Below are positions 11,307-30,214 of a stretch of DNA of 46,449 nt, piece after piece (the first letter of the stretch is position 1; every line of letters begins with the position of its first letter). The stretch is from a candidate division WOR-3 bacterium. GTDB taxonomy: Bacteria > Hydrothermota > Tepidihabitantia > SM23-42 > JAOAFX01. The notes below the pieces were generated by a model. It was not told the origin of the DNA. It ran no database searches and saw only the letters and a list, made by a program, of their open reading frames with translations. Location of the stretch: positions 1 through 46,449 of the forward strand of contig JBDRWD010000014.1 in assembly GCA_039802205.1 (NCBI GenBank), written 5' to 3'. A program made the translations under genes and the position numbers.

Positions 11307-12791
11307 CTAACCCAAAACTTTTCTCTTTATCAAAAAATTTTCTAACAGTGAAAGAAGGTTATAGCCAAACCAATATAACTGCAATCCAGAAGGAAAATTT
11401 AGAAAAATAATTATCATTATCAAGGGCATCATAATCACCATAAACCGTTGTCGGGGATCAACAGTTGTTATTAGTGATTGCAAAAGCATTAAAACCCCCA
11501 TTGCGATGGGTAGAACATAATAGGGATCCTTAATTGATAGATCACTAATCCAAAGGATAAAAGGTGCCCGGCGAAATTCAATCGCCGTGGTCAAAACTTG
11601 ATAAAGAGCAATAAAAATTGGAAACTGGATGAGCAAAGGTAGACAACCGGAAAAGGGATTAACCCGATAGACCTTGTAAAGGTGCATCATCTCACGATTC
11701 AATGTCTGGGGATCGTTCTTAAACTTCTCCTGGAGCTTTTTCAGTTCCGGTTGGAGCAGCTGCATCTGTCGCTGGGAAATTATCATCTGCCGCGAAAGGG
11801 GGAAGAAAATTATCTTAAGAAGGAAAGCAAAGATAACTATTGCCCATCCATAGTTTTTAACGAATGAATAAAAAACATTTAGAATCAAGATAATCAGACG
11901 TGCAATCGGTCCCCAAATTCCGCCGTGCTCAATCTGTTCGTACCCCTTTTGATACTTGGCAAGAATGCTAAATTTTATCGGTAACACTAATACTGAAACA
12001 CAAAAAGAAGAGTTGGCTAAAACTTCAATACCGTAGCGATTAACATTGCCGCCAGCTGCGCAACTCACGAATGCACTATAGATTTCACTATTTAATTTGG
12101 TAAGGCGGTAAAAATCAGCTGACCCGGCGTTTGCCAAGTTATTTACAATCAGCACAAAGTATTTGGTGCGCAGAGCAATCCACTTCCAATCGGAAGACAA
12201 TCGATATTGGTTTTGGATTTCTCCAACAATGCTCCGGAACTTTTTGTCTTGCACATAAACATTAAAATATTTCAGGTCGTCCCGCTGATTTTTTTCTTCG
12301 GTTATTTTTAATCCCGCTTTCAAACTAAGAATATGGTGTATGGTATCAGGAAAGTTGACTTTAAGTACAAAACCATCTTCATGGAAGTAATAAACCTTCT
12401 CATATTTTTTGCCTCTTACATACGTCCAAAATATAAGGGAATCACCAAGTAGTGAATATTCAAAGAATGTCTTGATATCGCCAATTTTAGTATCAAATAA
12501 TAAACATCTTTCCGGCACCAACTCCGCCTCGTAACGCTTTATGTAAAGGCTTTTTATACCCCCCCCTTTGGTGGTAAATGTCAAGCGATAATTATCGCGT
12601 TCAATAAGAATTGTATCACCTGCTGATAGTTCATCAGTAGTATTAGAAACAGTTTCCTTTAGAGAATCCTTTGCCTTCGCTTTTTGCATTTCAACATTAG
12701 AACCTCGCGGGCTGGTAACAAAACTCCAGAACAGAAGAATTATTATTATCAAAATAAAAGCCACAATTAATCGCTGCTGCTCATTCTCCAT
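11307..12791 (-). CDS. yidC: membrane protein insertase YidC
   Basis: YidC inserts proteins into the inner membrane, alone or with Sec. At 494 residues it is the long, gram-negative form: an N-terminal membrane anchor (about 8-25), a large periplasmic beta domain (about 50-300) and the conserved C-terminal five-helix core with [18 protein letters not shown] and [20 protein letters not shown]. The start at 12791 ([12 protein letters not shown]) has GGGAG upstream and overlaps yidD by 11 bases. The long form suggests a diderm envelope. Confidence 0.95.
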
Positions 12792-13038
12792 CTCTTTCTC
12801 CCTTTTCAAAAAAGAGAACTGGATCATAACCACCGGGGCAGAAAGGATTACACCTAATTATCCGATAGAGGCTCAATAAACCACCTTTCAAGATTCCAAA
12901 TCTTTTTATTGCTTCGATCGCATAATGCGAGCAAGAGGGTGTAAATCTGCAAGAAATAGGTAGCAAAATTCCTAGTGTCCTTTGGTAGAGTTTTATTAAC
13001 CAAATAAAAAGTTCATTAAGGTACTCGCTAAATTTCAT
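12781..13038 (-). CDS. yidD: membrane protein insertion efficiency factor YidD
   Basis: An 85-residue protein with the YidD signature [19 protein letters not shown] (about 30-48) and [11 protein letters not shown] near the end. YidD aids membrane insertion next to YidC. The start at 13038 overlaps rnpA by 11 bases and the end overlaps yidC, consistent with coupled translation within rpmH-rnpA-yidD-yidC. Confidence 0.93.
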
Positions 13039-13375
13039 GGTCGTGCCGTTCCTTTTTAAAAGCTTTGAATGCATCTAAAATACGCTTGGTGTCAAGCAAT
13101 CCTTTGGCATAAAAAATAACCGTTAAACCCATAAAAATCTCCTTATTCATTCGATACGCCTCCCTTAGCAGCCTCTTCATCCGATTCCGATTAACCGCGC
13201 CTTTGATTTTCCCGGAGGCGAAAAAGCCGATTTTCGACTGCGGACTGGGTTTATATATAATCACTAAATCATCAAACAAAAATCTTTTGCCCGTCAAAAA
13301 AAGTTCATCTATTTCTCTCTTATGCCGAATAATCGCATTTTTATTTATTCCAAATTTAGCTTCAATTTTCGGCAA
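13028..13375 (-). CDS. rnpA: ribonuclease P protein component
   Basis: RnpA is the protein subunit of RNase P, which matures tRNA 5' ends. The 115-residue protein carries the RNR signature [17 protein letters not shown] (about 59-75). The start is a TTG at 13375, 13 bases after the rpmH stop: it gives LPK near the N-terminus, as in the family, and no ATG or GTG fits. No good Shine-Dalgarno is visible. Confidence 0.9.
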
Positions 13376-13388
13376 TCTTCTAATTTAT

Positions 13389-13523
13389 TTAAACCACCAG
13401 ACGTTTCCGGCCCTTCTTTCTTCTTCGACTTAAAACCTTTCTGCCGGCTTTGGTTTTCATACGCGCACGGAAACCGTGTGTTTTTTTTCTTTTTCTGCGA
13501 CTGGGCTGATATGTTCGCTTCAT
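13389..13523 (-). CDS. rpmH: 50S ribosomal protein L34
   Basis: A 44-residue protein beginning [20 protein letters not shown] and ending in a basic tail, with the L34 core [17 protein letters not shown]. Its position directly before rnpA is universal. The ATG is six bases after a perfect TATAAT and has no Shine-Dalgarno, so the transcript is predicted to be leaderless. Confidence 0.97.
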
Positions 13524-13529
13524 AAGGTT

Positions 13530-13557
13530 ATTATATGCAAATTTATCAAAAAGTCAA
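13530..13557 (-). promoter_or_regulatory. rpmH operon promoter, leaderless type
   Basis: TTGACT (13552-13557), 16 bp, TATAAT (13530-13535), then six bases to the rpmH ATG at 13523. This is the cleanest example of the shared architecture and drives the ribosome/membrane-insertion operon. Confidence 0.8.
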
Positions 13558-13579
13558 GAGAGCCTTAAATCTTTAAATA

Positions 13580-13607
13580 TTGACTTTTCTCACAATTTGA
13601 TTATAAT
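13580..13607 (+). promoter_or_regulatory. promoter of the GIY-YIG/radical SAM cassette, leaderless type
   Basis: TTGACT (13580-13585), 16 bp, TATAAT (13602-13607), then six bases to the ATG at 13614. It is divergent from the rpmH promoter. Confidence 0.8.
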
Positions 13608-13613
13608 CCTATT

Positions 13614-13922
13614 ATGCCGATTGATAGTGGTTGGCGAAGATTAATTCCCGAACAACTGAAAAATGCCCCGGATTATCCCGGGGTGTTTGAACTTTCCGAT
13701 ATCCTACAAGATATTGTTTACATAGGCTATACACAAAGTCTGGCACAAACTATCCAGTTAATATATGAGCGACGCGACCCCGATTTTAATGTTGCAGCAT
13801 TTTTTAGATTTCAGACTACTGATGAACCCGAAATTATGTATCGGAAACTCATTGAAGAATTTAAACAAAAATATAATAAACTGCCTCCAATAAATCAAAA
13901 AAAATCTCCCGGGGATGGATAA
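13614..13922 (+). CDS. small GIY-YIG-like domain protein
   Basis: A 102-residue protein. PGVFELSD followed by [11 protein letters not shown] resembles the two strands of the GIY-YIG nuclease fold: GVF in place of GIY, then an intact YIG. The rest ([20 protein letters not shown]) matches the helical end of small GIY-YIG-like proteins. The catalytic Arg and Glu cannot be assigned with confidence, so activity is doubtful. It is the first gene of a four-gene, overlapping cassette and starts six bases after its -10 box. Confidence 0.5.
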
Positions 13923-14259
13923 AGAAAATTATTTCACTTCTAAAAACATTTGTATTAAATCAAAAAAATTCTTACAAAAACTTAAAGCATTTTACCGGTT
14001 TCCCAGAATACGATTTAGCCCCGATGCCTCTGCCTTGCTCATTATTGATATGCAGCGTTATTTTCTGGAGAAAGATTCCCATGCATTTTTACCAGCGGCG
14101 CTGGCCATAATCCCCAATATTAAAAAACTTATCTCTATTTTTAGTAAAAAAAAAGACCGATTATTTTTACACAGCATATCAATACAAGAAGAAACGCCGG
14201 AATGCTTAAAAAATGGTGGAATGATATCATCACCCGGGATAATAAGAATTACCAATTAA
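13915..14259 (+). CDS. isochorismatase-like cysteine hydrolase, N-terminal fragment (frameshifted gene)
   Basis: The first half of an isochorismatase-family hydrolase. [10 protein letters not shown] carries the catalytic aspartate D45 and DSHAFLPAA follows in the family order. Family similarity stops at an A9 run (14146-14154). After it this frame reads unrelated residues to a stop at 14257-14259, while the -1 frame continues the family sequence without a break. The start overlaps the upstream gene by eight bases. It is either a pseudogene, an assembly error in the homopolymer, or a gene expressed by -1 slippage. Confidence 0.75.
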
Positions 14260-14576
14260 GCCCAGCCTTGTATGTTTCCGGGGCACCCGTAATCATAAAA
14301 ACGCAATACGATGCATTTTATAAAACAAACTTAGCAAAGCTTTTAGAAACACAAAAGATAAAACAACTGGTGATAACCGGGGTGATGACTAACCTCTGTT
14401 GTGAGACAACGGCACGGAATGCTTTTGTTCGTGGTTTTGAAATATTTTTTGTTGTTGATGGGACCGCTACGCAGAATGAACTGATGCATTGGGCAACCCT
14501 TGTCAACCTTAGCTATGGTTTTGCTATTCCAGTTCTTACTGAAGAAATAATAAATTGTTTCAAAAGAAAATGTTAA
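14202..14576 (+). CDS. isochorismatase-like cysteine hydrolase, C-terminal fragment (frameshifted gene)
   Basis: The second half of the hydrolase. Homology in this frame begins directly after the A9 run near 14148 with RPIIFTQHI...NAGMLKKWW, the usual isochorismatase linker; the ATG at 14202 is internal to the original protein. Downstream come the catalytic lysine (KTQYDAFYKTNL) and the nucleophile in VITGVMTNLCCETTAR, then ARNAFVRGFEIFFVVDGTAT, all intact. Joined to the first half it makes a full-length enzyme of about 220 residues. The substrate is unknown; this family includes isochorismatases, nicotinamidases and other amidases. Confidence 0.8.
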   Translation: MLKKWWNDIITRDNKNYQLSPALYVSGAPVIIKTQYDAFYKTNLAKLLETQKIKQLVITGVMTNLCCETTARNAFVRGFEIFFVVDGTATQNELMHWATLVNLSYGFAIPVLTEEIINCFKRKC

Positions 14577-15436
14577 AAACCCGCGTCGCTATCATCGGTG
14601 CTGGCCCGGCGGGAATTGCCTGTGCAATACAGCTGAAGAGAAGCAAAATTGCCTTTTTGATATTTGAAAGAGAAAAACCAGGAGGACTGTTGCGCAATGC
14701 CAATTTCGTTGAAAACTATCCAGGATTTCCAGATGGCATAAAAGGTGAAAAACTCGTCGCTCTTTTCCAACAGCAGTTGCAAAATAATAAAATAAATATC
14801 ATCAAGGAAAGTGTGGAAAGAGTAAAGTATGAAAAGACTTTTCTAATTGAGACCTCAAAAAATATTTACCAATCAGAATTTTTGGTTGTAGCCTCAGGGA
14901 CTAAGCCACGCATGTTAGACCTTGAGATCCCCCAGGCAGCAAACTTCCGAATATTCTATGAAATAATCAAGATTAAAAAATTGAAGAATTCCCGTATTGC
15001 GATCATTGGGGCTGGGGATGCAGGTTTTGATTATGCCCTCAGCCTTAGCAAAAAAAACAAAGTCTGGATTTTAGACCGTGCAGAGAAACCAAAATGCTTA
15101 CCATCATTGTTTGATAAATGTATGAAAAACCAAAGAATAGTTTATCTTAAGAATTTTGCAGTGACTGGAGTTCGATTTATTGACAACAATCTTATTTTAT
15201 CGTCTGATAACAGAACCTTGAGTGTCGATTATATGGTAGTAGCTATCGGCCGCGAGCCGAATCTTGATTTTCTCGAGCAGTATACAATTAAAAGTTTAGA
15301 AGGAAATAAAAAGCTTTATATGATCGGCGATGTAAAAAATGGACCATTTCGTCAGACAGCCATCGCTGTTGGAGATGGAATTAAAGCTGCTATGGAAATA
15401 AGCAGAATGTCTTTAAATTATGAAGGTAATCAGTAA
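14570..15436 (+). CDS. thioredoxin-reductase-like FAD/NAD(P) oxidoreductase lacking CxxC
   Basis: A 288-residue two-dinucleotide-binding flavoprotein. The FAD-binding IGAGPAGIACAI lies near the N-terminus, followed by GGLLRNANFVENYPGFPDGI, an ATG-like VVASGTKPR, a second Rossmann loop IAIIGAGDAGFDYAL and a C-terminal GDVKNGPFRQTAIAVGDG. The order matches TrxB, but the redox CxxC between the NADPH-domain strands is absent, so it is not a classical thioredoxin reductase. ATG 14570 overlaps the preceding stop by seven bases, and its end overlaps the radical SAM gene by 17. It may supply electrons to a cassette partner. Confidence 0.8.
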   Translation: MLKTRVAIIGAGPAGIACAIQLKRSKIAFLIFEREKPGGLLRNANFVENYPGFPDGIKGEKLVALFQQQLQNNKINIIKESVERVKYEKTFLIETSKNIYQSEFLVVASGTKPRMLDLEIPQAANFRIFYEIIKIKKLKNSRIAIIGAGDAGFDYALSLSKKNKVWILDRAEKPKCLPSLFDKCMKNQRIVYLKNFAVTGVRFIDNNLILSSDNRTLSVDYMVVAIGREPNLDFLEQYTIKSLEGNKKLYMIGDVKNGPFRQTAIAVGDGIKAAMEISRMSLNYEGNQ

Positions 15437-16355
15437 GATAGGCCGCGAAGATATCGCAATCGTTTACATTGCACAAACCATCAGAGGAATACCAACGGAA
15501 TTTGTTGAATCAGTCCAACCACCCCTCCCGCGCACCGATAAGTGGGTTTTGATTGTATCCACCCTTTACGGTTGTCCAGTAAGGTGCAAAATTTGCGATG
15601 CTGGAGGATTCTATAAAGGTAAATTATCAACTCAGGAAATAATAGACCAGATTGATTTCATGGTAAGAAACCGCTTTCCTGACCGAAAAGTTCCAGTCAA
15701 AAAATTCAAGATTCAGTTCGCCCGCATTGGTGAACCGGCTTTTAACGATTCGGTTCTTGAAGTCCTTGAACTACTACCTACACTATATGATGCCCCTGGA
15801 CTCATGGTCTGTATCTCTACCATCGCTCCGTTGGGCAAAGAAAGATTTTTTAAGGATATGTTGAAAATAAAAAAGGACCAATATTTTGGCAGGTTTCAAT
15901 TACAATTCTCTATCCACACTACCAATGAACAATTGAGAGATTGGCTTATTCCTACAAAGAAGTGGAATTTCAAGCAAATAGCCGATTATGGTGAAGTATT
16001 TTATCAAGATGGTGAAAGAAAGATTGTGTTAAATTTTGCCCTTGCCAAAGGTATGGTAGTGGATGAAAATATCCTTTTGAGATATTTTAATCCTGAGAAA
16101 TTTATCATAAAAATTACACCGGTAAATCCTACCATTAATGCCCGTAAAAATAATATCTTATCCCAGATTATCACGGAAGACGAAAAAAATGAAACCATTG
16201 ATCGCCTAAGAACAGCCGGATATGAAGTTGTTTTAAGTATAGGAGAACTAGAGGAAAATAAAATCGGTTCAAATTGTGGGCAGCATATTTTAAAATTCTT
16301 AAACGAAAGACCAACGATGATTGAGAGTTATACCTATCCTGTGAGAATCGTGTGA
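15420..16355 (+). CDS. compact RlmN/Cfr-like radical SAM protein
   Basis: A 311-residue radical SAM enzyme with the [4Fe-4S] motif C52, C56, C59 (GCPVRCKICDAGG). It aligns by eye to RlmN/Cfr methyltransferases: QLQFSIHTTNEQLRDWLIP matches SLHAPNDELR...LMP, LNFALAKGMVVDE matches the YVLLKGVND block, and IGSNCGQH places C286 at the methyl-carrying cysteine (Cys355 of E. coli RlmN). Two things differ: the N-terminal RNA-binding domain of RlmN is missing, and Ile45 stands where RlmN has its second essential cysteine (Cys118), seven residues before C52. The substrate is therefore uncertain. Confidence 0.8.
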   Translation: MKVISKIGREDIAIVYIAQTIRGIPTEFVESVQPPLPRTDKWVLIVSTLYGCPVRCKICDAGGFYKGKLSTQEIIDQIDFMVRNRFPDRKVPVKKFKIQFARIGEPAFNDSVLEVLELLPTLYDAPGLMVCISTIAPLGKERFFKDMLKIKKDQYFGRFQLQFSIHTTNEQLRDWLIPTKKWNFKQIADYGEVFYQDGERKIVLNFALAKGMVVDENILLRYFNPEKFIIKITPVNPTINARKNNILSQIITEDEKNETIDRLRTAGYEVVLSIGELEENKIGSNCGQHILKFLNERPTMIESYTYPVRIV

Positions 16356-19667: not shown

Positions 19668-20723
19668 TTACCCCAATATCTTGCGTATTTCTTCAATAAT
19701 GCGGCGGGCATAAACAAAGATTAATCCTGGTTTTGCTTCTGGTTGGGTGATTATACCTAATAATGATTCACCCGCTGTGACCACACATATCGTCTCATCA
19801 CTCTTCTCGAGAATAAATCTATCTAAATGTCCAACTTTCAGAAATTGAAAAGCATTTTCAGCTTCATTAAAAATACCTGCAAGGAGTGCTGAGATTTCTT
19901 CGATGTCTTCTCTTCCCTCGTAGTAATTTTGAACGAGTAATCCATCGCGGGCGAGGATAAACGCCCCCTTAACTGTTTTTATGCCGAGCAATTTTTTCAT
20001 TGGTTCGTTAAGAGAGTCAAGCGGGCTTATCTTTTCTACTACCTTCTCTTCCAAAACCGGTTCGAATCCAATTTCCGGAAGAACCGAGGTGGTTTCTAAT
20101 TCTGTACGCATGACGATTTCTTTAGGCGGGGTTATCTCCTCAGATTTCGCCGGTTCTACAACTTCAAGTTTGGATTCGGGTTGGATTTCGGTCTCTACAA
20201 CAGTTTGTGGTTCAATTTTCTCTATCAATTCTTCAATAGGGAGCCGTGGCTTAATTTCTTCCTGAGGCACCGCCACCATTTCCGGGATTATTTTACTCGT
20301 CTCCTCTAAAACCCCAGGTGTCTCTTTTGTACTTTCCACAAGACTTGGTTTTGGTCGGAGCAATTCCAATTCTTGCTTTGCCTCTTTATTTTCAGGATTT
20401 ATCTTTAAGGTAGCTTCATAAAATTTGATGGCCTTTTCATAATCACCGAGACGCTTGTAAATATGGCCGAGATAAAGATTTTCGTTTTCGCTTTCCTTCG
20501 CTTGTTCGTATATTTCTTCCAAAATTTTTTGTGCCTGTTCAATATCACCTTTTAGATAATATGCCCGGCCCAAGATAATTTTGCCTAAGGTATAATTAGG
20601 ATTTCGACTCAAACCATCTTTAAGAATGGAGATTGCTTCATCAATCATTCCCGATGTTAGATAGACATCAGCCAGGGTCGCAAATATCAATGCCTTGGAA
20701 TCCATTGCTAATTCATCGGCCAT
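19668..20723 (-). CDS. TPR protein with C-terminal Roadblock/LC7 domain
   Basis: A 351-residue protein. Residues 1-130 hold about three to four TPR motifs (for example YEKAIKFYEATLKINPENKEA). Residues 130-230 are an acidic, Pro/Glu/Val-rich linker. Residues 235-351 are a Roadblock-like domain (LLGIKTVKGAFILARDGLLVQNYY onwards). It sits 14 bases after the large TPR gene and two before the lone Roadblock gene. The architecture suggests a scaffold joining protein contacts to a Roadblock dimer. The function is not established. Confidence 0.75.
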   Translation of the reverse strand: MADELAMDSKALIFATLADVYLTSGMIDEAISILKDGLSRNPNYTLGKIILGRAYYLKGDIEQAQKILEEIYEQAKESENENLYLGHIYKRLGDYEKAIKFYEATLKINPENKEAKQELELLRPKPSLVESTKETPGVLEETSKIIPEMVAVPQEEIKPRLPIEELIEKIEPQTVVETEIQPESKLEVVEPAKSEEITPPKEIVMRTELETTSVLPEIGFEPVLEEKVVEKISPLDSLNEPMKKLLGIKTVKGAFILARDGLLVQNYYEGREDIEEISALLAGIFNEAENAFQFLKVGHLDRFILEKSDETICVVTAGESLLGIITQPEAKPGLIFVYARRIIEEIRKILG

Positions 20724-20737
20724 TGGCTATTCTCCCT

Positions 20738-23134
20738 TCAAACTTGCGATTTTAAAAATTCCATCATCTCCATAGTTATATTAAGGCAGTGAGTGATCTT
20801 GCTCGCCAATTCTTCATCGGGACTTAAAAGCATCGCTTTTTTCCAGTAGCTGCACGCCTCTTCAAATTTACCTTCTTGCACAGCAATAATACCCAAATGG
20901 TAATGGGCTAGTGGTTTAGCAGGTTCAAGCTCAATTGCCCGTTCAAAATAGCTGCGGGCTTGCTGCCGCTCATTTTTTTCCAGATGATATATACCGGCGA
21001 CCTCATAAAAATCATATAGCTCAGGCTTTTCTTGTTCAAGGAGATTCAAATACTTTGCCGCAGCCTCTAGGTCTTTCTTTTTTACCATAATTTTTGCCAA
21101 ACCTAAGTTTACATTAATATCAGCAGGATTTCGTTGATACAATTCTTGATATATCTTTGCAGCCTCATCAAGTTCATTCAATTCTAAACTTAAGTTAGCA
21201 ATTTCGCGCAGATAATCCGGATTGTCCTTCTGAATTTGCAAAAGATTTTGGTATTTTCTTTTTGCTTCCTTCAAACGTCCTAAAGATTTGAGCAAATTGG
21301 CAAGATATAATGTTGAATCAATATCATCAGGATGGCGTTGTGTGTAATTCTCCAGCTGATTCAAAGCGTCATCGATATTCCCAGCTTGGAAAAGAATGCG
21401 TGATTTCAAGACCACTGCCTCGCTCATCTCCGGCACCAATTTCAATGCCTCATCAACCATGTTCAATGCTTTGTCAAATTCATTTTTCTTTAAAAAATTT
21501 TCGGCTTCCTGAATGTAATCCTGAGGAGTTGGTATTTCTAATGTCGGAAAGAATTCTTCTACTTCTTCTGCAATTTTTTCCTTCACCTGTTCCTCAATCT
21601 TTGCCGGGGTGTAATACAAATTATGTTCATATAATTCCGGAGCCAAGGCAATACGGTATTTTTCTTTCTCGTAATTAGGTTCAATTTCCATCCCCTTACG
21701 GATATGTGAAAGACCTTCTTCAAACTGTCCGGTCTTCATCAGCAGAAAACCTAAATTATAATATCCCCCTGCATATCCGGGGGCCGCATTAATTACACTC
21801 CGGAACGCATTAACCGCTTCCTCGTCGCGACCCAGTTCGGCATAAACCAAACCCTTAAAGAAGTTGCCATCCACCGATTCATCTTTGAAAAGTTTTAAAA
21901 CCTGTTCGTAATCACCTTTCTTATATAGATACATCCCTAAATTATACCTTGCCTCTTCACTTCCCTGAGCTATAGCGTCTTTTAGAATATTTACTCCTTC
22001 TTCGATTTGATTAGTAAGATAGAGGGCCAAACCAAGATTTGCCCGCGCGGGTAAATATTTATTATCAACAGCGAGTGCCTTCTCAAAATAACTCTTTGCT
22101 TGAGAGAAATTGTGTTTCTTGAAATAAACAACACCCAGACCATTGAGTCCTTTAATAGAAAGTGAATCGAGCTCCAGACATTTTGAGAAGTTATTTAATG
22201 CCTCATCTATTTTGTTAAGAAAAAGATGCACTTCGCCGAGCGCGGCATGGAGTTCGGCGTCTTCGCTATTCAGTTTCAACGCTTCTTCAAATTCCCGTTT
22301 TGCTTCGGTAAATAATCCTTTGTTTCGGTAGGTCATACCTAAATTAAAATGCACCTGATATTCATTAACCGAACTCTTGGGAATTCCTAATTGTTCTTTC
22401 AAAAATTCAAGATATCCCCGGTGCTCTTTAAGTTCAATAGGTAAATTGGGTTCAAACTGGGCAAGGGCAGGATTGAGTTGAATTGCTTTTTTGATTTCTT
22501 CCCGACCTTCTTTGTGCAAGCCCTTTTCACCCAGCGCAAAGCCCAAAAAGAAATGGGCCTCCGCCGAAGAGGGGTCAAGCGTAATTGCTTCCTGAAAATT
22601 CTTTATCGCTAAATCAATAATTCCTTTGTTGAAATATATCTCACCGAGCAGACGATAGCCTTCTGGAGAAATTTTAATCTCCAAACTCTTTTTTATCTCC
22701 TCTAAGGCGTCGTCATATTTTCCCAAATTTTTCAGGGTGATACCTAATCCAAAATGTGCCTCATAAGAACCAGGATTGAAATCAAGAATTTTGCGGTAAT
22801 AAATGATCGCCTGTGAATAACGATTTAATTTTCGATAAGTGTCGGCGAGCTCCAAGGTTTTGCGCTCGTCAAATGGTTCCACTTCAATATGATGGGCAAG
22901 TTCTTTGACTTTGCTTTCAAGCTTTCCTGACTTCTTCAAGATTATTTCCAAGTTATTCCGTGCCAGGGTAAAATTGGGGTCAATGCTTAGAGCCTTCTCC
23001 AGTTCCTGAATTGCCTCTTCATAAAGCCCTTTATTATAATATACCACCGCAAGATTATTGTGGGCTCCCGGATCGTTGTCCGGGATGCGCTCTGCAAAAC
23101 TTTTTAAAACTTTATACTCCTCAGGAGATATCAT
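20738..23134 (-). CDS. large TPR repeat protein
   Basis: A 798-residue protein built almost wholly of tetratricopeptide repeats, seen as recurring A-x3-Y/F...ALxLxP-x-(A)-x-AHxxLG patterns such as YEEAIQELEKALSIDPNFTLARNNL and FERAIELEPAKPLAHYHLG. There is no signal peptide or membrane segment, so it is cytoplasmic. Two solenoids are separated by a less regular segment around residues 500-540. It lies four bases after cheC and is clearly in its operon, so it probably scaffolds the chemosensory output. Confidence 0.85.
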   Translation of the reverse strand: MISPEEYKVLKSFAERIPDNDPGAHNNLAVVYYNKGLYEEAIQELEKALSIDPNFTLARNNLEIILKKSGKLESKVKELAHHIEVEPFDERKTLELADTYRKLNRYSQAIIYYRKILDFNPGSYEAHFGLGITLKNLGKYDDALEEIKKSLEIKISPEGYRLLGEIYFNKGIIDLAIKNFQEAITLDPSSAEAHFFLGFALGEKGLHKEGREEIKKAIQLNPALAQFEPNLPIELKEHRGYLEFLKEQLGIPKSSVNEYQVHFNLGMTYRNKGLFTEAKREFEEALKLNSEDAELHAALGEVHLFLNKIDEALNNFSKCLELDSLSIKGLNGLGVVYFKKHNFSQAKSYFEKALAVDNKYLPARANLGLALYLTNQIEEGVNILKDAIAQGSEEARYNLGMYLYKKGDYEQVLKLFKDESVDGNFFKGLVYAELGRDEEAVNAFRSVINAAPGYAGGYYNLGFLLMKTGQFEEGLSHIRKGMEIEPNYEKEKYRIALAPELYEHNLYYTPAKIEEQVKEKIAEEVEEFFPTLEIPTPQDYIQEAENFLKKNEFDKALNMVDEALKLVPEMSEAVVLKSRILFQAGNIDDALNQLENYTQRHPDDIDSTLYLANLLKSLGRLKEAKRKYQNLLQIQKDNPDYLREIANLSLELNELDEAAKIYQELYQRNPADINVNLGLAKIMVKKKDLEAAAKYLNLLEQEKPELYDFYEVAGIYHLEKNERQQARSYFERAIELEPAKPLAHYHLGIIAVQEGKFEEACSYWKKAMLLSPDEELASKITHCLNITMEMMEFLKSQV

Positions 23135-23138
23135 AACC

Positions 23139-23750
23139 CTATATTAAATTTAGTTTCTTCAACATTATTTCTAAGCTAGAATTATCGGGTAATAAAAGAA
23201 AATATGCGGAAAGAGGTTTATTGAAATCACCGAAATCGAATTGTGTTTCAATGCAGAAAATAAAATCTTTTTCGTTGCCAAATTCCACAATAACGCTTGA
23301 AAGGACCGCACCTACCATATCAATGATCATCCCGGGTACTGAGGGGAGTATCAAAAGTCCCAACAGTTCACCAAGTGCATTCATATATGAACAAGAAAGA
23401 ATATTGGATACTTCCTTGAGAAGCGATTCCTGTAATTCAATTGTGCTTTCTTGCCCCTCGGGCATCAATAAACGTGTCAGTTCTTGAGCATCCTCATAGG
23501 GATATAAAAGCAGTGTCCTCCCAGTCAAATCGCCAAGAAAATACAAAAGAACCGATGCCACGATATCATTTGGGTCGGCAATTTTTAAAATAACATCTTC
23601 CAGTTGTCCGGTATAGAGTTTTGGAACCCTTATCATAACCTTTTTGCCGAGTAGTTGAGAAAGCGAAGTGGCAGCATGCCCACCTCCAATATTGGCTACC
23701 TCTGTAAGGGCATCAATCTGTTTTGTCGTGAGATTTTTAGCATCAATCAT
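23139..23750 (-). CDS. cheC: CheC-type CheY-P phosphatase
   Basis: CheC removes phosphate from CheY-P. The 203-residue protein has both phosphatase signatures: E17-x2-N20 in LTEVANIGGGHAATSLS and E113-x2-N116 in LLKEVSNILSCSY. That makes it of the two-site CheC class rather than CheX. The start overlaps the end of cheA by eight bases. In firmicutes CheC often pairs with the deamidase CheD, which is not seen here. Confidence 0.9.
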   Translation of the reverse strand: MIDAKNLTTKQIDALTEVANIGGGHAATSLSQLLGKKVMIRVPKLYTGQLEDVILKIADPNDIVASVLLYFLGDLTGRTLLLYPYEDAQELTRLLMPEGQESTIELQESLLKEVSNILSCSYMNALGELLGLLILPSVPGMIIDMVGAVLSSVIVEFGNEKDFIFCIETQFDFGDFNKPLSAYFLLLPDNSSLEIMLKKLNLI

Positions 23751-25254
23751 TTAACCCCCTGGGATCGAGAATCAAAATTGGTTTACCATCCCCATAAATA
23801 GCACATCCTGAATACAGCGTTGCCGGAAGCAATTTATCAATTTTTTTAACCACCATCTCTTCCTCCCCTAAGATTTCATCAACAATAAAGCCGCGTCTTT
23901 TACCCTCATATTCCACCACAACCACTGATTTCCTCCCTGGTTTTGAAAAACCCCCCAATTTTTCATTCACTCGGACTAAGGGAAGAATACTATTCCTCAA
24001 TTTGATAAGTTCATGTCCATGGACCGTTTGAATATTGCGGTCATCAATGTAGAAAGTTTCCCGGACATAGCTTAAGGGTAAGGCAAACCGCTGTCCATCT
24101 AAGCGCAGGATAAAGGTCCGGAGCACGGCCAGGCTGATGGGAAGTTCCATGATAAACTCTGAACCTTTCCCCTTTTGGGATTTTATCTCAAGTCGACCAC
24201 CCAGCTCTTTAACGCAAGAATTAACAATGTCAAGCCCCACTCCCCGGCCGGAAACGGCCGAAACTTCTCTTTTTGTGGAGAAATCACTCCTTAGTAAGAA
24301 TTTATAAACCTCCTCAGTGGTCAACTTTCGAGCGGCATCTTCATCTACTAACCCCTTCTCCACCGCAATTTTTCTTATCTCATCAGGATCAATTCCTCGG
24401 CCGGTATCTGCTACAATTATTTTTATTTGCTGCCTCTCCCGGTAAGCCTCTAACATTATCTTACCTTTTTGTTCAATACCGTGGTCAAGGGCATTACGCA
24501 GTAAATGGAGTATGGGCTCACGTAAAACATCAATAATTGAGCGGTCCACCTCCAGTTCAGCTCCTTTTACCACGAACTCCACTTCTTTATTCTGTTTTTT
24601 AGCCTCGTCCCTTAACCAGCGCGGGAAAAAGTCAAAAACTGTAGATAGCGGGAGCATCCGCAGACGCATGACCTCATCCTGAAGGGCAGTGATAAACCTT
24701 CCCATACTTTCGATCAGAAACTGAAGTTCCCTGTTGGCTATTTCCGAACTCAATTTTAAAAGCCTTGATTTTAAAATGAGCAATTCATTGGTGAGATTAA
24801 ACAAACTATCTATCTTCGCCATTTTTATCTTAATTTCGCCCGTCTCAAACCTCAACATGGAGGGACGTTCAAACTCCACTCTCTTGCCTTCTTTAATATC
24901 CTCACAAATTTTACATAATTCATCAGCCGAAGGTAGTTTATCATTATCTTTTAGTGCCCTTAAAAATTTAGTGAAATAATCAACAACGCTGAAAAGAAAT
25001 TCAATAAGTTGCTTTTCAATTTCCCCCTTTCTTTTCGGTTCGGAGAGCAAATCCTCAGCCAGGTGGCTCAATCGACCCAACTCCTCAAAACCCATCGTCT
25101 GCGCCATGCCCTTAATAGTATGTAGAATCCGAAAAACCTCCAAAATTGCATTGCGATTTTGGGGTTCCTTTTCGAGATTTAACAACTCACTCTCCAGTTG
25201 CCTTATGAATGACTCGGTTTCACTAATAAAAAGTGGTAAATATTCCTCAAGCAT
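23743..25254 (-). CDS. cheA: chemotaxis histidine kinase CheA, without P2
   Basis: A 503-residue CheA. The Hpt domain carries the phosphorylated H45 in ILHTIKGMAQTMGF. After a linker of about 30 residues comes the P3 dimerisation domain, then the HATPase with HLLRNALDHGIE, DTGRGIDP and GRGVGLDIV, and a C-terminal CheW-like P5 domain ending GDGKPILILDPRGL. There is no room for a P2 CheY-binding domain, so CheY must dock directly. Start at 25254, six bases after cheY. Confidence 0.95.
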   Translation of the reverse strand: MLEEYLPLFISETESFIRQLESELLNLEKEPQNRNAILEVFRILHTIKGMAQTMGFEELGRLSHLAEDLLSEPKRKGEIEKQLIEFLFSVVDYFTKFLRALKDNDKLPSADELCKICEDIKEGKRVEFERPSMLRFETGEIKIKMAKIDSLFNLTNELLILKSRLLKLSSEIANRELQFLIESMGRFITALQDEVMRLRMLPLSTVFDFFPRWLRDEAKKQNKEVEFVVKGAELEVDRSIIDVLREPILHLLRNALDHGIEQKGKIMLEAYRERQQIKIIVADTGRGIDPDEIRKIAVEKGLVDEDAARKLTTEEVYKFLLRSDFSTKREVSAVSGRGVGLDIVNSCVKELGGRLEIKSQKGKGSEFIMELPISLAVLRTFILRLDGQRFALPLSYVRETFYIDDRNIQTVHGHELIKLRNSILPLVRVNEKLGGFSKPGRKSVVVVEYEGKRRGFIVDEILGEEEMVVKKIDKLLPATLYSGCAIYGDGKPILILDPRGLND

Positions 25255-25260
25255 CTTGGT

Positions 25261-25620
25261 TTACTTCTTCATGATTCTTTCTATAGACTCCAACACCCGA
25301 GAAGGTTGGAATGGCTTCACAACATAGTCAATTGCCCCGGCTTGAACTGCCTCCAGGACAAGTGCCTGTTGACCCATAGCTGAAACCATCAAAATCTTTG
25401 CCTTGGGATCGATTTTTTTGATTTCTTTAACCGCCTCAATACCACTCATATCCGGCATGATGATATCCATTGTTACCAGGTCTGGTTTTAGTTCCTTATA
25501 CCTTTCCACTGCTTCCTTACCTGTGGCTGCTTCTCCACAAACTGTATGCCCACCCTTTTCTAAAATATCGGTGAGCATTCGACGCATGAACATTGCGTCG
25601 TCAACCACCAGAATTCTCAT
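25261..25620 (-). CDS. cheY: CheY-type single-domain response regulator
   Basis: A 119-residue receiver domain with the acidic pair D7/D8, the phosphoacceptor D52 in TMDIIMPDMSG, S80 at the switch Thr/Ser position and K102 in VVKPF. There is no output domain. A strong AAGGAGG precedes the ATG. It is the first gene after an internal promoter, so cheY-cheA-cheC and the TPR/Roadblock genes can be expressed apart from the receptor and CheW. With no flagellar gene in view, its target is unknown. Confidence 0.95.
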   Translation of the reverse strand: MRILVVDDAMFMRRMLTDILEKGGHTVCGEAATGKEAVERYKELKPDLVTMDIIMPDMSGIEAVKEIKKIDPKAKILMVSAMGQQALVLEAVQAGAIDYVVKPFQPSRVLESIERIMKK

Positions 25621-25708: not shown

Positions 25709-26128
25709 CTATTCTTCCCTGGCGATAACCCGGGAGAGGTTTAGAATCAAAATCGGCTTTTCCTCACCTTCATACGCACCAACGAAAAAATCTCTTTCCT
25801 TTCGGGTGACAAGCAACTCTGAATTCCGATTAATCAAATGGCTATCTATCTTTTTGGTACCCCACAGTCCATCCACCCTCAGACCGGCAATCCGCTCTCC
25901 TTCCTCAATCACCAGAATCATATTCGATTGTTCTTCACCTGTAATTCCTAGACGTTGACGTAGCGAAATAATCGGAACAATTTCCCCCCTGATGTTTGCC
26001 AATCCCAGAATAAAGTTAGGAGCATGAGGGACAGGAACAAACGGGGGTAGTTCCGTTACTTCACGGACTTTTCTGATATCTATCCCCACTAATTCATCAC
26101 CAATCTTAAAAATTATCAATGTTTCCAT
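25709..26128 (-). CDS. cheW: CheW-type coupling protein
   Basis: CheW links receptors to CheA. The 139-residue protein matches the family: LIIFKIGDELVGIDIRKVREV at the start, ILGLANIRGEIVPIISLRQRLG in the middle, and the repeated GVDGLWG-type strand later. It starts two bases after the receptor-fusion gene, so the two are co-expressed. The stop is TAG. Confidence 0.95.
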   Translation of the reverse strand: METLIIFKIGDELVGIDIRKVREVTELPPFVPVPHAPNFILGLANIRGEIVPIISLRQRLGITGEEQSNMILVIEEGERIAGLRVDGLWGTKKIDSHLINRNSELLVTRKERDFFVGAYEGEEKPILILNLSRVIAREE

Positions 26129-26130
26129 AG

Positions 26131-29100
26131 TTATATGCCTACAAGGTTTCTAAAACGGACCAATCCAAAAGGGTCAACGACAAACCCCTTTATATTCTTC
26201 TGCACCGCATAACAATCAACACCATGGGATATGAAAACCCAGAGCGCATTATCAACAATAAAATTTTCTATCTTCTGGTAAAGCTCCAGCCGCCGGCGTA
26301 AATTCTGTTCTGATCTTGCTGCTTCAATCATTTGGTCGAGTTCCTCGTTGGCATAAAAGGAAGTATTGCCGCTTGCTCCAAAATTTTTGGAATGAAAAAG
26401 CGTATAAACGAAGTTATCAGGATCACCGTTATCTGAAACCCATCCCCTCAGACTCATAAGGCTGTTCCCACTGTAAGTCTTATTTAGAAACTCCTCCCAT
26501 GGTAATGCATTTATCTTTAGCTTGATACCGATTTTCGCGAAAGATTCTTTAATAAACTCGGCTCGTTTGATCGTCTCGGAACCTGCCCTTATATCAAGGA
26601 TAAATTCCTCGTGGATACCATTAACAAAACCTGCCTCTCGCATCAATTCCCGGGCTTTTTTAAGATCATATGGGTAGCCGGCCAATTTGCTATTGTACCC
26701 GGGTAAACCCGGGGGATAAACACCATGGGCGGGTATTGCTTTGCCTCTGAGTAATGAGCGACAATAATATTCCCGATCAAGTGCATAATTCATTGCCTTT
26801 CGCACATTTAAATCAAAAAAGGGCGAAATTCGGGAAAAATTAATAGCAAGATAGTGGGTAGATAGTACTGGTCCAGCATAAATTTCCTCCGGAGAAAACT
26901 CTTGTAGCATATCAACCGTCAAATTCAAAATTGATAATTCGCCACTTTTAAATAATTCCAGGGCCTCTCTGTCATCGGGAACAATTTTTATGATGCATTC
27001 AGAAATTGGTGGTCGACCGTCAAAAAAATCATCAAAGGCTTCAAAAATTATTTCTTTCTGCCGTTCATAATGTACCAGCTTATAAGGTCCACAACCTACC
27101 GGCTTATCCGGGTTAAAGTTTGATGGCACTATATCACAGACGCCACAAGCCAGGTTAGCAAGAAAAGGAATATAAGAGAATTTCAACACAAACCGGACAT
27201 GATATGGGTCTACTATTATCATATCGGAAAGATACTCAATGAAATTGGCGTTAGGACCCTTTTTTACTCGATTCAACGAAAAAATAACATCCTGGGCTTG
27301 AACCTCCTGCCCATCATGAAATTTAACTCCCTTTTTTAGATAAAAATCCCAAACCCTACCATCTTCCGATACCGAAAATGAATAAGCCACTGCCGGAATG
27401 ATATGATTTAGTGAATCAAAAGTGTAAAGGCCGGTAAAAACTTGTTCAATCACCTGATGGCTGGTGGTGTCGGTTTTAATCGCCGGGTCAAAAGTGATGG
27501 GATCTTCAGTGGTCCGCAAGACGATACGTTTTTTTTCGGTGGTAATCACCGATACCTCTTTCTTGAAATCTTCAATAAGCCCTCTAATTTCATGTGCGAG
27601 TTTCTCTCCAGATTGGATAATCGTATCATAAGAAGAAAAATATTCATTTATCTTCTGGTATTCTTTTTCAAAGTTACGATAATATTCACCCAGCATGCCA
27701 CATTTGGTAATCATTTCTGAAGTTGTAGAAAACATCTCCTGGGATAAGGTGGCAAGGTTATCAAGAGTGCTGTTACTCTCATTAATTGCTTCGGTCGCAA
27801 TCCCCAAAGCATTGAAACCAAGTTCCACATCACTTGCAGTTTTTATAAAAAATGTTATAAGATAATTGATATCTTTTTCCAATTGTGCCAAAACACTATC
27901 AATACTCTGAACAAATTCAGAGGACTGATGGGAAAGCGTTTTTATTTCCCCAGTCACTACCCCGAGAGTTTCGGCATATTTGCCACTCCGTGCACTCTCA
28001 ATACTCGCGTATAAACCTAAGAGGCGAGCCCGATCCGTTACATGTTTCAATTCAGTGAGTGGTTTATCGACTTTATTTACAATACTTTTCAGTCGGCTGG
28101 ACTTATTTGTTAACAAACCAAGTAATTCGCTCACGTCCTGGTAAAAAACTTTGGCTCGCGCTAATGTTTCGTGTGCAAAATTATGAGTCTTACGCCATGA
28201 CTTCATCTTTTCTCCGATCATGTTAATTGTTTCGTTAAGATGTTTCGCCTCCGAAACAAATTGTAATATCAATCTCTCTGAAAAGTGCAGGTCAAATGTT
28301 TTTAGCGTTCTACCCAGCAGGCGTTCCGTGCCCTCCATTCTCGGTTCATACAATAGAATATTTCTTAAGATGAAAAAAAGCGAGGCAAAATTCTGGTCGT
28401 TGTCACTGGAAATTAACAAATTTTTTGTGTTATTGAGATGTTGAAAAAATGCACCCAATGACAATTCAGTAACCGAGGCAGTCCGAATAATTTGGTAAAT
28501 GTCTTCAAGATAACCAGGTAACCTTTCACTCTCTTTCTGTAAACCGATTTGCAGTTCCTTTTGTATTGCGGCACTATTAGAAACATCTCTAATTGCGTTT
28601 TCCAGATAAGGAATGAAGGTTAATAATTCATTATTGATATTTAAAAATTTGTCTGCGATTTCTTTCAAGTATAAAATTAAACTTTGAATTTTTTGAATGT
28701 CCTGGTTTAATTCACCGATATTCTTTAGTAACTCACTGGAGATCTCTGGAATAAGTTGCATAGGCAGATGAGCATTACGGACTAAATCGGTCATCTCGCG
28801 AGCGATAACCTCGAATCCTCTTCCTTCTTGTCCTGCATGAAAAGCAGTTATCCCGGCATTCCTTGAGGTAACCTCAATAGTTTCAGAAATGAGGTTTATG
28901 TTTTGAATAATTTCCACCAGGTGACCTATTCGTTCCTGAATTTTATTTAAAGTGAAGATAATATTATTCAGATCAAGATTAATTTTTTCCGATACTGTAA
29001 CCGATTCCTTAAAATTTTCTATACTCCTTTTTAAAAGGTCATTCATTTTTTTGATTTCGGAGTCAAAAACATCCACTCCCTCGATCACCAATTCAATCGT

Positions 29101-29271
29101 TGCCGAGAGATTGTTAAACTTCTGTTTTATCTCGGTCAACAACTCGGAATTGGTCTGAAGGCTATTTTCGATCTGCTGCCCAGTAGTGAGAAAATTTTGA
29201 AAATAAGTATCATACTGCACGAATAAAGGTTTTAGGCGTTCGATTATTGTATCTCTCAACATGCTCGCCAT
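26131..29271 (-). CDS. cytosolic receptor-like protein: two degenerate MCP hairpins fused to a peptide-binding (SBP_bac_5) domain
   Basis: A 1046-residue protein. Residues 1-575 are long helices with two stretches resembling the tip of MCP signalling domains: about 124-165 (ISETIEVTSRNAGITAFHAG, then GRGFEVIAREM) and about 408-450 (TDRARLLGLYASIESARSG, then VVTGEIKTLSHQS). Both are clearly divergent from the canonical sequence. Residues 583-1046 are a complete extracytoplasmic-type solute-binding domain of the Opp/Dpp/NikA family (LTFDPA-like start, KKGVKFHDGQEVQAQDVIFSLNRV, GCGPYKL, RKAMNYALDR). No signal peptide or membrane segment is seen, so the binding domain is predicted to be cytoplasmic. 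It is first in the chemosensory operon and directly before cheW. Confidence 0.85.
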   Translation of the reverse strand: MASMLRDTIIERLKPLFVQYDTYFQNFLTTGQQIENSLQTNSELLTEIKQKFNNLSATIELVIEGVDVFDSEIKKMNDLLKRSIENFKESVTVSEKINLDLNNIIFTLNKIQERIGHLVEIIQNINLISETIEVTSRNAGITAFHAGQEGRGFEVIAREMTDLVRNAHLPMQLIPEISSELLKNIGELNQDIQKIQSLILYLKEIADKFLNINNELLTFIPYLENAIRDVSNSAAIQKELQIGLQKESERLPGYLEDIYQIIRTASVTELSLGAFFQHLNNTKNLLISSDNDQNFASLFFILRNILLYEPRMEGTERLLGRTLKTFDLHFSERLILQFVSEAKHLNETINMIGEKMKSWRKTHNFAHETLARAKVFYQDVSELLGLLTNKSSRLKSIVNKVDKPLTELKHVTDRARLLGLYASIESARSGKYAETLGVVTGEIKTLSHQSSEFVQSIDSVLAQLEKDINYLITFFIKTASDVELGFNALGIATEAINESNSTLDNLATLSQEMFSTTSEMITKCGMLGEYYRNFEKEYQKINEYFSSYDTIIQSGEKLAHEIRGLIEDFKKEVSVITTEKKRIVLRTTEDPITFDPAIKTDTTSHQVIEQVFTGLYTFDSLNHIIPAVAYSFSVSEDGRVWDFYLKKGVKFHDGQEVQAQDVIFSLNRVKKGPNANFIEYLSDMIIVDPYHVRFVLKFSYIPFLANLACGVCDIVPSNFNPDKPVGCGPYKLVHYERQKEIIFEAFDDFFDGRPPISECIIKIVPDDREALELFKSGELSILNLTVDMLQEFSPEEIYAGPVLSTHYLAINFSRISPFFDLNVRKAMNYALDREYYCRSLLRGKAIPAHGVYPPGLPGYNSKLAGYPYDLKKARELMREAGFVNGIHEEFILDIRAGSETIKRAEFIKESFAKIGIKLKINALPWEEFLNKTYSGNSLMSLRGWVSDNGDPDNFVYTLFHSKNFGASGNTSFYANEELDQMIEAARSEQNLRRRLELYQKIENFIVDNALWVFISHGVDCYAVQKNIKGFVVDPFGLVRFRNLVGI

Positions 29272-29317: not shown

Positions 29318-30214
29318 CTACTTGATAAAAATTAAACCCACCCCCAAAATAGCAATTAGTGTTCCGATTACATTAGTGCGAGTAATTCTCTCCTTAAATA
29401 TCCAATAAGAAAGGGGGATTAAAATTATCGGTGGTAAGGCCATCAAAGTTGAAGCAATCCCGATGTAAGCGTGCTGAATAGCAACAAGCGAAAGCCAAAC
29501 CCCTAAAAATGGACCAAAAAATGCACCAGCCAACATTAAACAGATTGCGTTATTATTTTTTGCTCCCTGAATCGTTTCAATCAATTTGCCTTGAAATAAT
29601 GCTACCACCCAGATAAAAAGAGTGCCGGCTGTCACCCTGATCAAATTACCCGCGAGCGGTTGCAAATTATTGCATAAAAGTCCTTTTTTTGATAAAAAAT
29701 ATCCTAGGGATTGACATAGTGCAGCTGCTAAACCACATAATATGCCGCGCAAATAACTTTTTATTTTAACATCAGAATTCTTCTTAGCATAAAGAACAAT
29801 GCCAATGCCCAAAATAGTGACAATAATACCAACCACGTCCTTAAGTGTCAAAACCTCACCCAATGCTAACCAACCCAATAACATTCCAAATACAGGTGCC
29901 AGTGACATTAACAACATCGTCAGGCGTGGGCCAATTAAAACATAGCCCTGAAACAAAAATGTATCCCCGATGGCAAAACCAATTATTCCTGAGAGACCAA
30001 ACCAAACCCAATGACAATGCATAGCATTTTGAGGAATTAAATTTCCCGAAAGTACCCAATGAGTTAACAGCAAAAATAGCATACCTAATAAAAGTCGTAT
30101 CCGGTTAACAGTATTGGCACCGCTGAGCCGTGAGGCTAAGGTAAAGAATATTGAACCAAATGACCAACAAAAAGATGTACCTATGGCAGCAATTTCCCCG
30201 TAATATTTCGACAT
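29318..30214 (-). CDS. EamA/DMT-family permease
   Basis: A 298-residue integral membrane protein with about ten helices in two EamA repeats; the conserved endings are LALGEVLTLKDVVGIIVTILGIGIVL in the first repeat and IFKERITRTNVIGTLIAILGVGLIF in the second. Family members export amino acids or metabolites; the substrate cannot be told. It begins 19 bases after the tRNA-Phe 3' end and is probably read from the tRNA promoter. Confidence 0.85.
   Translation of the reverse strand: MSKYYGEIAAIGTSFCWSFGSIFFTLASRLSGANTVNRIRLLLGMLFLLLTHWVLSGNLIPQNAMHCHWVWFGLSGIIGFAIGDTFLFQGYVLIGPRLTMLLMSLAPVFGMLLGWLALGEVLTLKDVVGIIVTILGIGIVLYAKKNSDVKIKSYLRGILCGLAAALCQSLGYFLSKKGLLCNNLQPLAGNLIRVTAGTLFIWVVALFQGKLIETIQGAKNNNAICLMLAGAFFGPFLGVWLSLVAIQHAYIGIASTLMALPPIILIPLSYWIFKERITRTNVIGTLIAILGVGLIFIK

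Follow-up and report, generated by a model that had tools for sequence, protein, structure and literature searches.

We found that a candidate division WOR-3 bacterium encodes a chemoreceptor that appears to be wholly intracellular, in which a doubled, single-chain chemotaxis signalling rod is joined to a peptide-catching domain of a kind normally found outside the cell. Its gene (26131-29271, minus strand; 1046 aa) lies in a stretch of 46,449 nucleotides (contig JBDRWD010000014.1), all of which was analysed and is called the window here. In our best reading, the product is a cytosolic peptide or amine sensor that would drive a CheA pathway. The first 575 residues would form two methyl-accepting chemotaxis protein (MCP) hairpins, derived by internal duplication and packed within one chain as a pseudo-dimer that mimics the four-helix bundle of two-subunit chemoreceptors and has its two tips at one end. 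A DppA-like domain at the base would close around a ligand inside the cell that has a free amino group, a short peptide or related solute being the most likely candidate. This closure would travel along the bundle to the tips, and these would engage the CheW and CheA that the operon encodes. CheA would phosphorylate CheY and CheC would dephosphorylate it; the output would probably be type IV pilus motility or polarity through an MglA/Roadblock module, as in the Frz pathway. We give this model as a whole a probability of roughly 0.6.

The sensor frame has no internal stops, and both of its domain types score above the Pfam cut-offs, as an earlier sequence-only reading of this DNA had expected. 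MCPsignal matches in two stretches (82.7 bits against a cut-off of 34.6, best at residues 398–520), and SBP_bac_5 matches almost completely at residues 624–964 (276.6 bits). Two congeneric genomes and one from the same family carry the same undivided, stop-free frame (77%, 71% and 48% identity; 1049–1056 aa), so the sensor is a true single gene and not a pair joined by the assembly. With equivalent frames in congeners and in 46 genomes, the frame or assembly error that the earlier reading had itself raised as a danger can be ruled out.

The same reading had placed the protein in the cytosol for want of a signal peptide or membrane helix, and hydropathy bears this out. The highest 19-residue Kyte-Doolittle mean is 1.57 and falls within the fold of the solute-binding protein (SBP) domain; in the helical half it is 1.03. 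Residues 1–60 reach only 0.34, compared with 1.5–2.65 in most secreted SBP controls. Neither a signal peptide nor a membrane helix was detected in the sensor by hydropathy, and none of 40 homologues has a convincing membrane segment, so that a hidden one was rejected. Cysteine content, compared as an indicator of cytosolic location, gave p = 0.15 for the fusions of the window's phylum and p = 0.009 for those of the Bacillota (here the phylum of a Lachnospiraceae-like genome), the latter value being suggestive of a cytosolic location. Lacking both transmembrane helix and signal peptide, the protein belongs with the cytosolic chemoreceptors. Its C-terminal half has the Pfam domain and the fold of the SBP_bac_5 family, but no export signal as an extracytoplasmic ABC-transporter component would have, and no Opp/Dpp transporter gene adjoins it. 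Domains, intact frame, hydropathy, predicted structure and a conserved operon together give good support to the proposal of a cytosolic Che-pathway receptor that has an SBP domain for its ligand.

The sensor is the first gene of that operon, all of it on the minus strand. CheW (25709-26128; Pfam CheW, 105.7 bits) begins 2 bp downstream, which agrees with the earlier remark that it follows directly. Next come CheY (25261-25620), a single Response_reg receiver with MD..MP and KPF motifs, and CheA (23743-25254), with Hpt (HTIKG at residue 45), dimerisation, HATPase and CheW-like domains and no receiver domain. They are followed by a CheC-type phosphatase (23139-23750; Pfam CheC; NCBIfam CheC_Thtogales, 160 bits) with two intact D/S-x3-E-x2-N-x22-P motifs, a TPR protein of 798 aa (20738-23134) and a TPR protein with a Roadblock/LC7 domain (19668-20723; Robl_LC7 at residues 243–326). 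The catalytic motifs of CheA, CheY and CheC are intact. This gene order, including the two TPR genes, is kept in at least nine families, several of which add a DUF4388 gene and separate Roadblock genes. From the adjacent cheW, cheY, cheA and cheC we infer that the sensor controls CheA through CheW. The gene for an EamA-type permease (29318-30214), also on the minus strand, is found 46 bp upstream of the sensor, a position that it retains in three related genomes (L044, L045, L047). Elsewhere in the window, an isochorismatase-like gene (13915-14576, plus strand) consists of two overlapping frames of 114 and 124 aa and looks frameshifted.

What the pathway controls has to be read from other loci. 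In the window's own genome, the sensor operon does not adjoin pilT, mglA or cheR; CheR, CheD and CheB are encoded in a separate cluster together with DUF4388/TPR, DnaA-like and Roadblock genes. The same genome encodes canonical MCPs, one of them with a HAMP domain (L083:7801-9369, minus strand; L084:8449-10038, plus strand), so the sensor is not its only chemoreceptor. A flagellar output was rejected, as the carriers of the sensor gave no clear FliG match and only two weak ones. PilT is encoded in all 46 carrier genomes, and an MglA-like GTPase and CheR in 45 each, counts that are confounded by shared ancestry; the association of PilT with the sensor has p = 3e-5 by a statistic that ignores this ancestry. 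In family f16, the sensor gene stands in divergent orientation beside a biotin-carrier gene, pilT and accC at three loci, one of which (L082) also has genes for an MglA-like GTPase, a DnaA-like protein, a DUF4388/TPR protein and CheR as neighbours. Other families have pilT, mglA and cheR within one cluster.

The closest functional parallel is the Frz system of Myxococcus xanthus, where a pathway that controls MglA/MglB polarity takes its input from a cytosolic receptor. Like FrzCD, the sensor is a cytosolic chemoreceptor with a Che pathway in genomes that also encode MglA, Roadblock proteins and type IV pili. FrzCD differs in having a DNA-binding region, a di-HAMP and one signalling domain, and no SBP domain. 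In Frz-type systems the kinase FrzE is a CheA-CheY fusion, whereas CheY is a separate single receiver in the window's operon. For the pathway, a role outside motility as an alternative cellular function system, for example in transcription or metabolism with an output through Roadblock, TPR, DUF4388 and DnaA-like proteins, is clearly less probable than pilus control. The absence of flagellar genes, the DnaA-type ATPases that adjoin CheR or Roadblock genes and the many genomes that have PilT without the sensor would all fit such a role. The position of the sensor next to pilT in f16 and the pilT/mglA/cheR clusters of several families argue against it, as does, in the window's own genome, a Roadblock protein encoded close to CheR that matches an MglB model, albeit below its cut-off. 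On the reading as a regulator of pili, the sensor probably allows bacteria that crawl on surfaces to orient themselves by a nutrient signal from within. DnaA-type AAA+ ATPase genes beside CheR, Roadblock or MglA-like genes were seen at L085:11473-13362 (minus strand), L059:157-1914 (minus strand) and L082:9504-11441 (plus strand).

Structure prediction, which the sequence-only reading had recommended for both halves, yielded helical hairpins followed by an SBP fold. The AF2 model (mean pLDDT 88.7; input alignment of 38 homologues) has helices at residues 5–145, 147–288, 329–427 (with a break at 400–401) and 430–574 and turns at 146, 289–328 and 428; a run on the N-terminal half alone gave the same helices and turns. 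Hairpin 1 thus comprises residues 5–288 (28408-29259, minus strand) with its turn at 146 and contains one MCPsignal stretch. Hairpin 2 comprises residues 329–574 (27550-28287, minus strand), with helices 329–399, 402–427 and 430–574, a turn at 428–429 and the MCPsignal match at 398–520. Foldseek matched the helical half to the MCP cytoplasmic domains 2ch7 and 3g67, among other coiled coils; the match to 2ch7 chain B spans 302 columns at target TM 0.72. The two hairpins align with each other at zero offset over 156 columns (97.9% probability), the in-register alignment that is expected of an internal duplication.

The tips of these hairpins had been described as degenerate. Two MCP-type hairpins are indeed present, but their tips are conserved in two distinct, complementary forms. 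Residue numbers follow E. coli Tsr, and counts refer to the 28 sequences left after removal of ten of the orphan paralogue type. Hairpin 1 has the tip motif R-N-A-x-I-(K/T)-A-(F/Y)-(H/Q)-A-G-x-x-G-(R/K)-G-F and keeps N381, G393, R/K394, G395 and F396 in 28 of 28 sequences; it always has R at 380 (28/28) and mostly H at 388, while position 385 is K or T and never E (0/28). Hairpin 2, with the motif L-x-L-Y-A-x-I-E-x-A-R, keeps L380 and E385 in all 28 sequences and R388 in 27, has Y at 381 throughout (28/28) and has mostly lost positions 393–396. The tips have diverged in complementary ways, each losing what the other retained. When the paralogues are counted as well, all 38 aligned sequences share the N and two glycines of tip 1 and the E of tip 2 without exception. 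Neither hairpin alone carries the canonical CheW/CheA and trimer contacts, but both together cover most of them; the single hairpins of the Bacillota fusions mostly have both residue sets. A search of the window protein for the strict methylation site (A/G/S/T-A/G/S/T-x-E/Q-E/Q-x-x-A/G/S/T-A/G/S/T) found none.

Chemoreceptors are generally considered to signal as trimers of symmetric homodimers. In the sensor, all four hairpin arms are about 140 residues long or somewhat shorter. Judged from these lengths and the turns, in a single-chain prediction that is biased toward intrachain contacts, the chain most likely folds back on itself into a pseudo-dimer that has a single ligand domain at the base. 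The tip pattern looks like that of two copies that divided the work and, together with the arm lengths, points to such intrachain pairing. We see about an even chance for the full picture, in which the two subfunctionalised hairpins of one polypeptide make up the whole four-helix signalling bundle and the chain reads one intracellular peptide-binding domain; with a single chain reading a single domain, sensing would be monovalent and asymmetric. We know of no characterised chemoreceptor that works as a single-chain pseudo-dimer with monovalent sensing, and a literature search for pseudo-dimeric receptors returned nothing relevant. A natural receptor with complementary half-tips would reveal in which half of a dimer a given tip residue has to act, for which engineered mutants are the usual approach.

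Two signalling domains in one cytosolic chain are also found in DosM of the Vibrio cholerae F9 system, where they lie at opposite ends of a rod that spans two baseplates (PMC7534058, where an SBP domain is not mentioned), and cytosolic chemoreceptor arrays are sandwiched between two baseplates (PMC3964821). By analogy, the sensor could be a rod that bridges a pair of CheA/CheW baseplates and whose second hairpin carries the SBP domain as an appendage, but we consider this unlikely. The similar arm lengths and the predicted break at 289–328 point to both tips lying at one end, the tips are complementary halves instead of two complete tips and so fit pairing at one end better, and the distance from tip to SBP domain equals that in single-hairpin relatives.

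The SBP_bac_5 domain (residues 580–1046; 26131-27534, minus strand) is DppA-like, and the claim of a full Opp/Dpp-type binding domain at the C-terminus holds. DppA (1dpp) aligns to residues 588–1043, and Foldseek returned 3m8u, 1dpp and 5u4o at target TM 0.83–0.86, DppA, GbpA and related proteins being the matches. DppA, which is one of the nearest solved structures in both sequence and fold, differs in being secreted and free-standing. The NCBIfam SgrR model also matches this half (5.6e-15). SgrR is a regulator with a cytosolic SBP_bac_5 sensor domain, in this respect like the sensor, but its output is an N-terminal DNA-binding domain and not chemoreceptor hairpins.

The suggestion of a peptide ligand stands in part. 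Asp947 of the sensor aligns with Asp408 of DppA, to which the amino group of the peptide is anchored; 36 of 38 homologues keep it, which is compatible with a peptide or an amine. No conserved equivalent of DppA Arg355, the other ligand anchor, was present among the aligned homologues, so that a dipeptide is not required as ligand. From these residues, a short peptide or another solute that bears an amine is a plausible candidate. That the domain has ceased to bind ligands and is now a structural or protein-docking module is quite improbable: the missing Arg355 equivalent and the altered pocket motifs of some relatives (L079, L056) would fit, but the pocket appears to be under selection, given the full-length SBP fold predicted at high confidence and a loop motif in the pocket, GW-x-x-D-(N/T)-x-D/E-P, that is nearly invariant. 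If the domain does bind, a type of domain familiar from peptide uptake on the outside of the cell now works on the inside, suggesting that some bacteria steer by solutes they have already imported.

The survey across genomes proposed earlier found the same architecture in 46 of 147 genomes from the phylum, spread over 13 families, with frames of about 1000 aa or longer (one, cut by a contig end, has 905 aa). Many genomes have a second, orphan copy; that of the window's own genome (C47; L043:7808-11047, plus strand) has no che neighbours and strongly degenerate tips. Forty genomes from the phylum to which a Calditrichaceae genome belongs showed no such fusion, nor did a scan of named genomes reveal one. 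Among 299 Bacillota genomes, we found frames of about 800–870 aa that join a single-hairpin MCP to SBP_bac_5, present in 11 of 15 genomes surveyed from one class. They share with the sensor the domain order, the tip-to-SBP distance of about 160 residues and, mostly, the lack of a predicted signal peptide, but have one canonical hairpin per chain and no hairpin duplication; hence they are presumably ordinary homodimers with two SBP domains.

The idea that the layout is without precedent therefore has to be narrowed. We found no characterised protein of the exact layout in the open literature, where a search for SBP_bac_5 with MCPsignal gave nothing relevant, and cytosolic chemoreceptors, SBPs as sensors and chains with two signalling domains are known kinds that we did not find described in combination. 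Uniqueness of the MCP-SBP_bac_5 fusion as such is rejected by the Bacillota proteins, themselves uncharacterised, and SgrR and DosM share parts of the design. In a tree of SBP domains both fusion kinds fall in one clade (98/96), with the secreted SBPs L100 and L102 as nearest sampled neighbours. It follows that the fusion is old, while the hairpin duplication, seen only in the window's phylum, seems specific to it. A single fusion event for both kinds is likely rather than proven, because outgroup sampling in the tree is thin. The single-hairpin relatives offer a ready comparison for the putative pseudo-dimer. One Bacillota locus (L110:4572-9394 and 11977-16001, both plus strand) has two such genes in tandem, a few kb from pilB-, pilT- and pilC-type genes.
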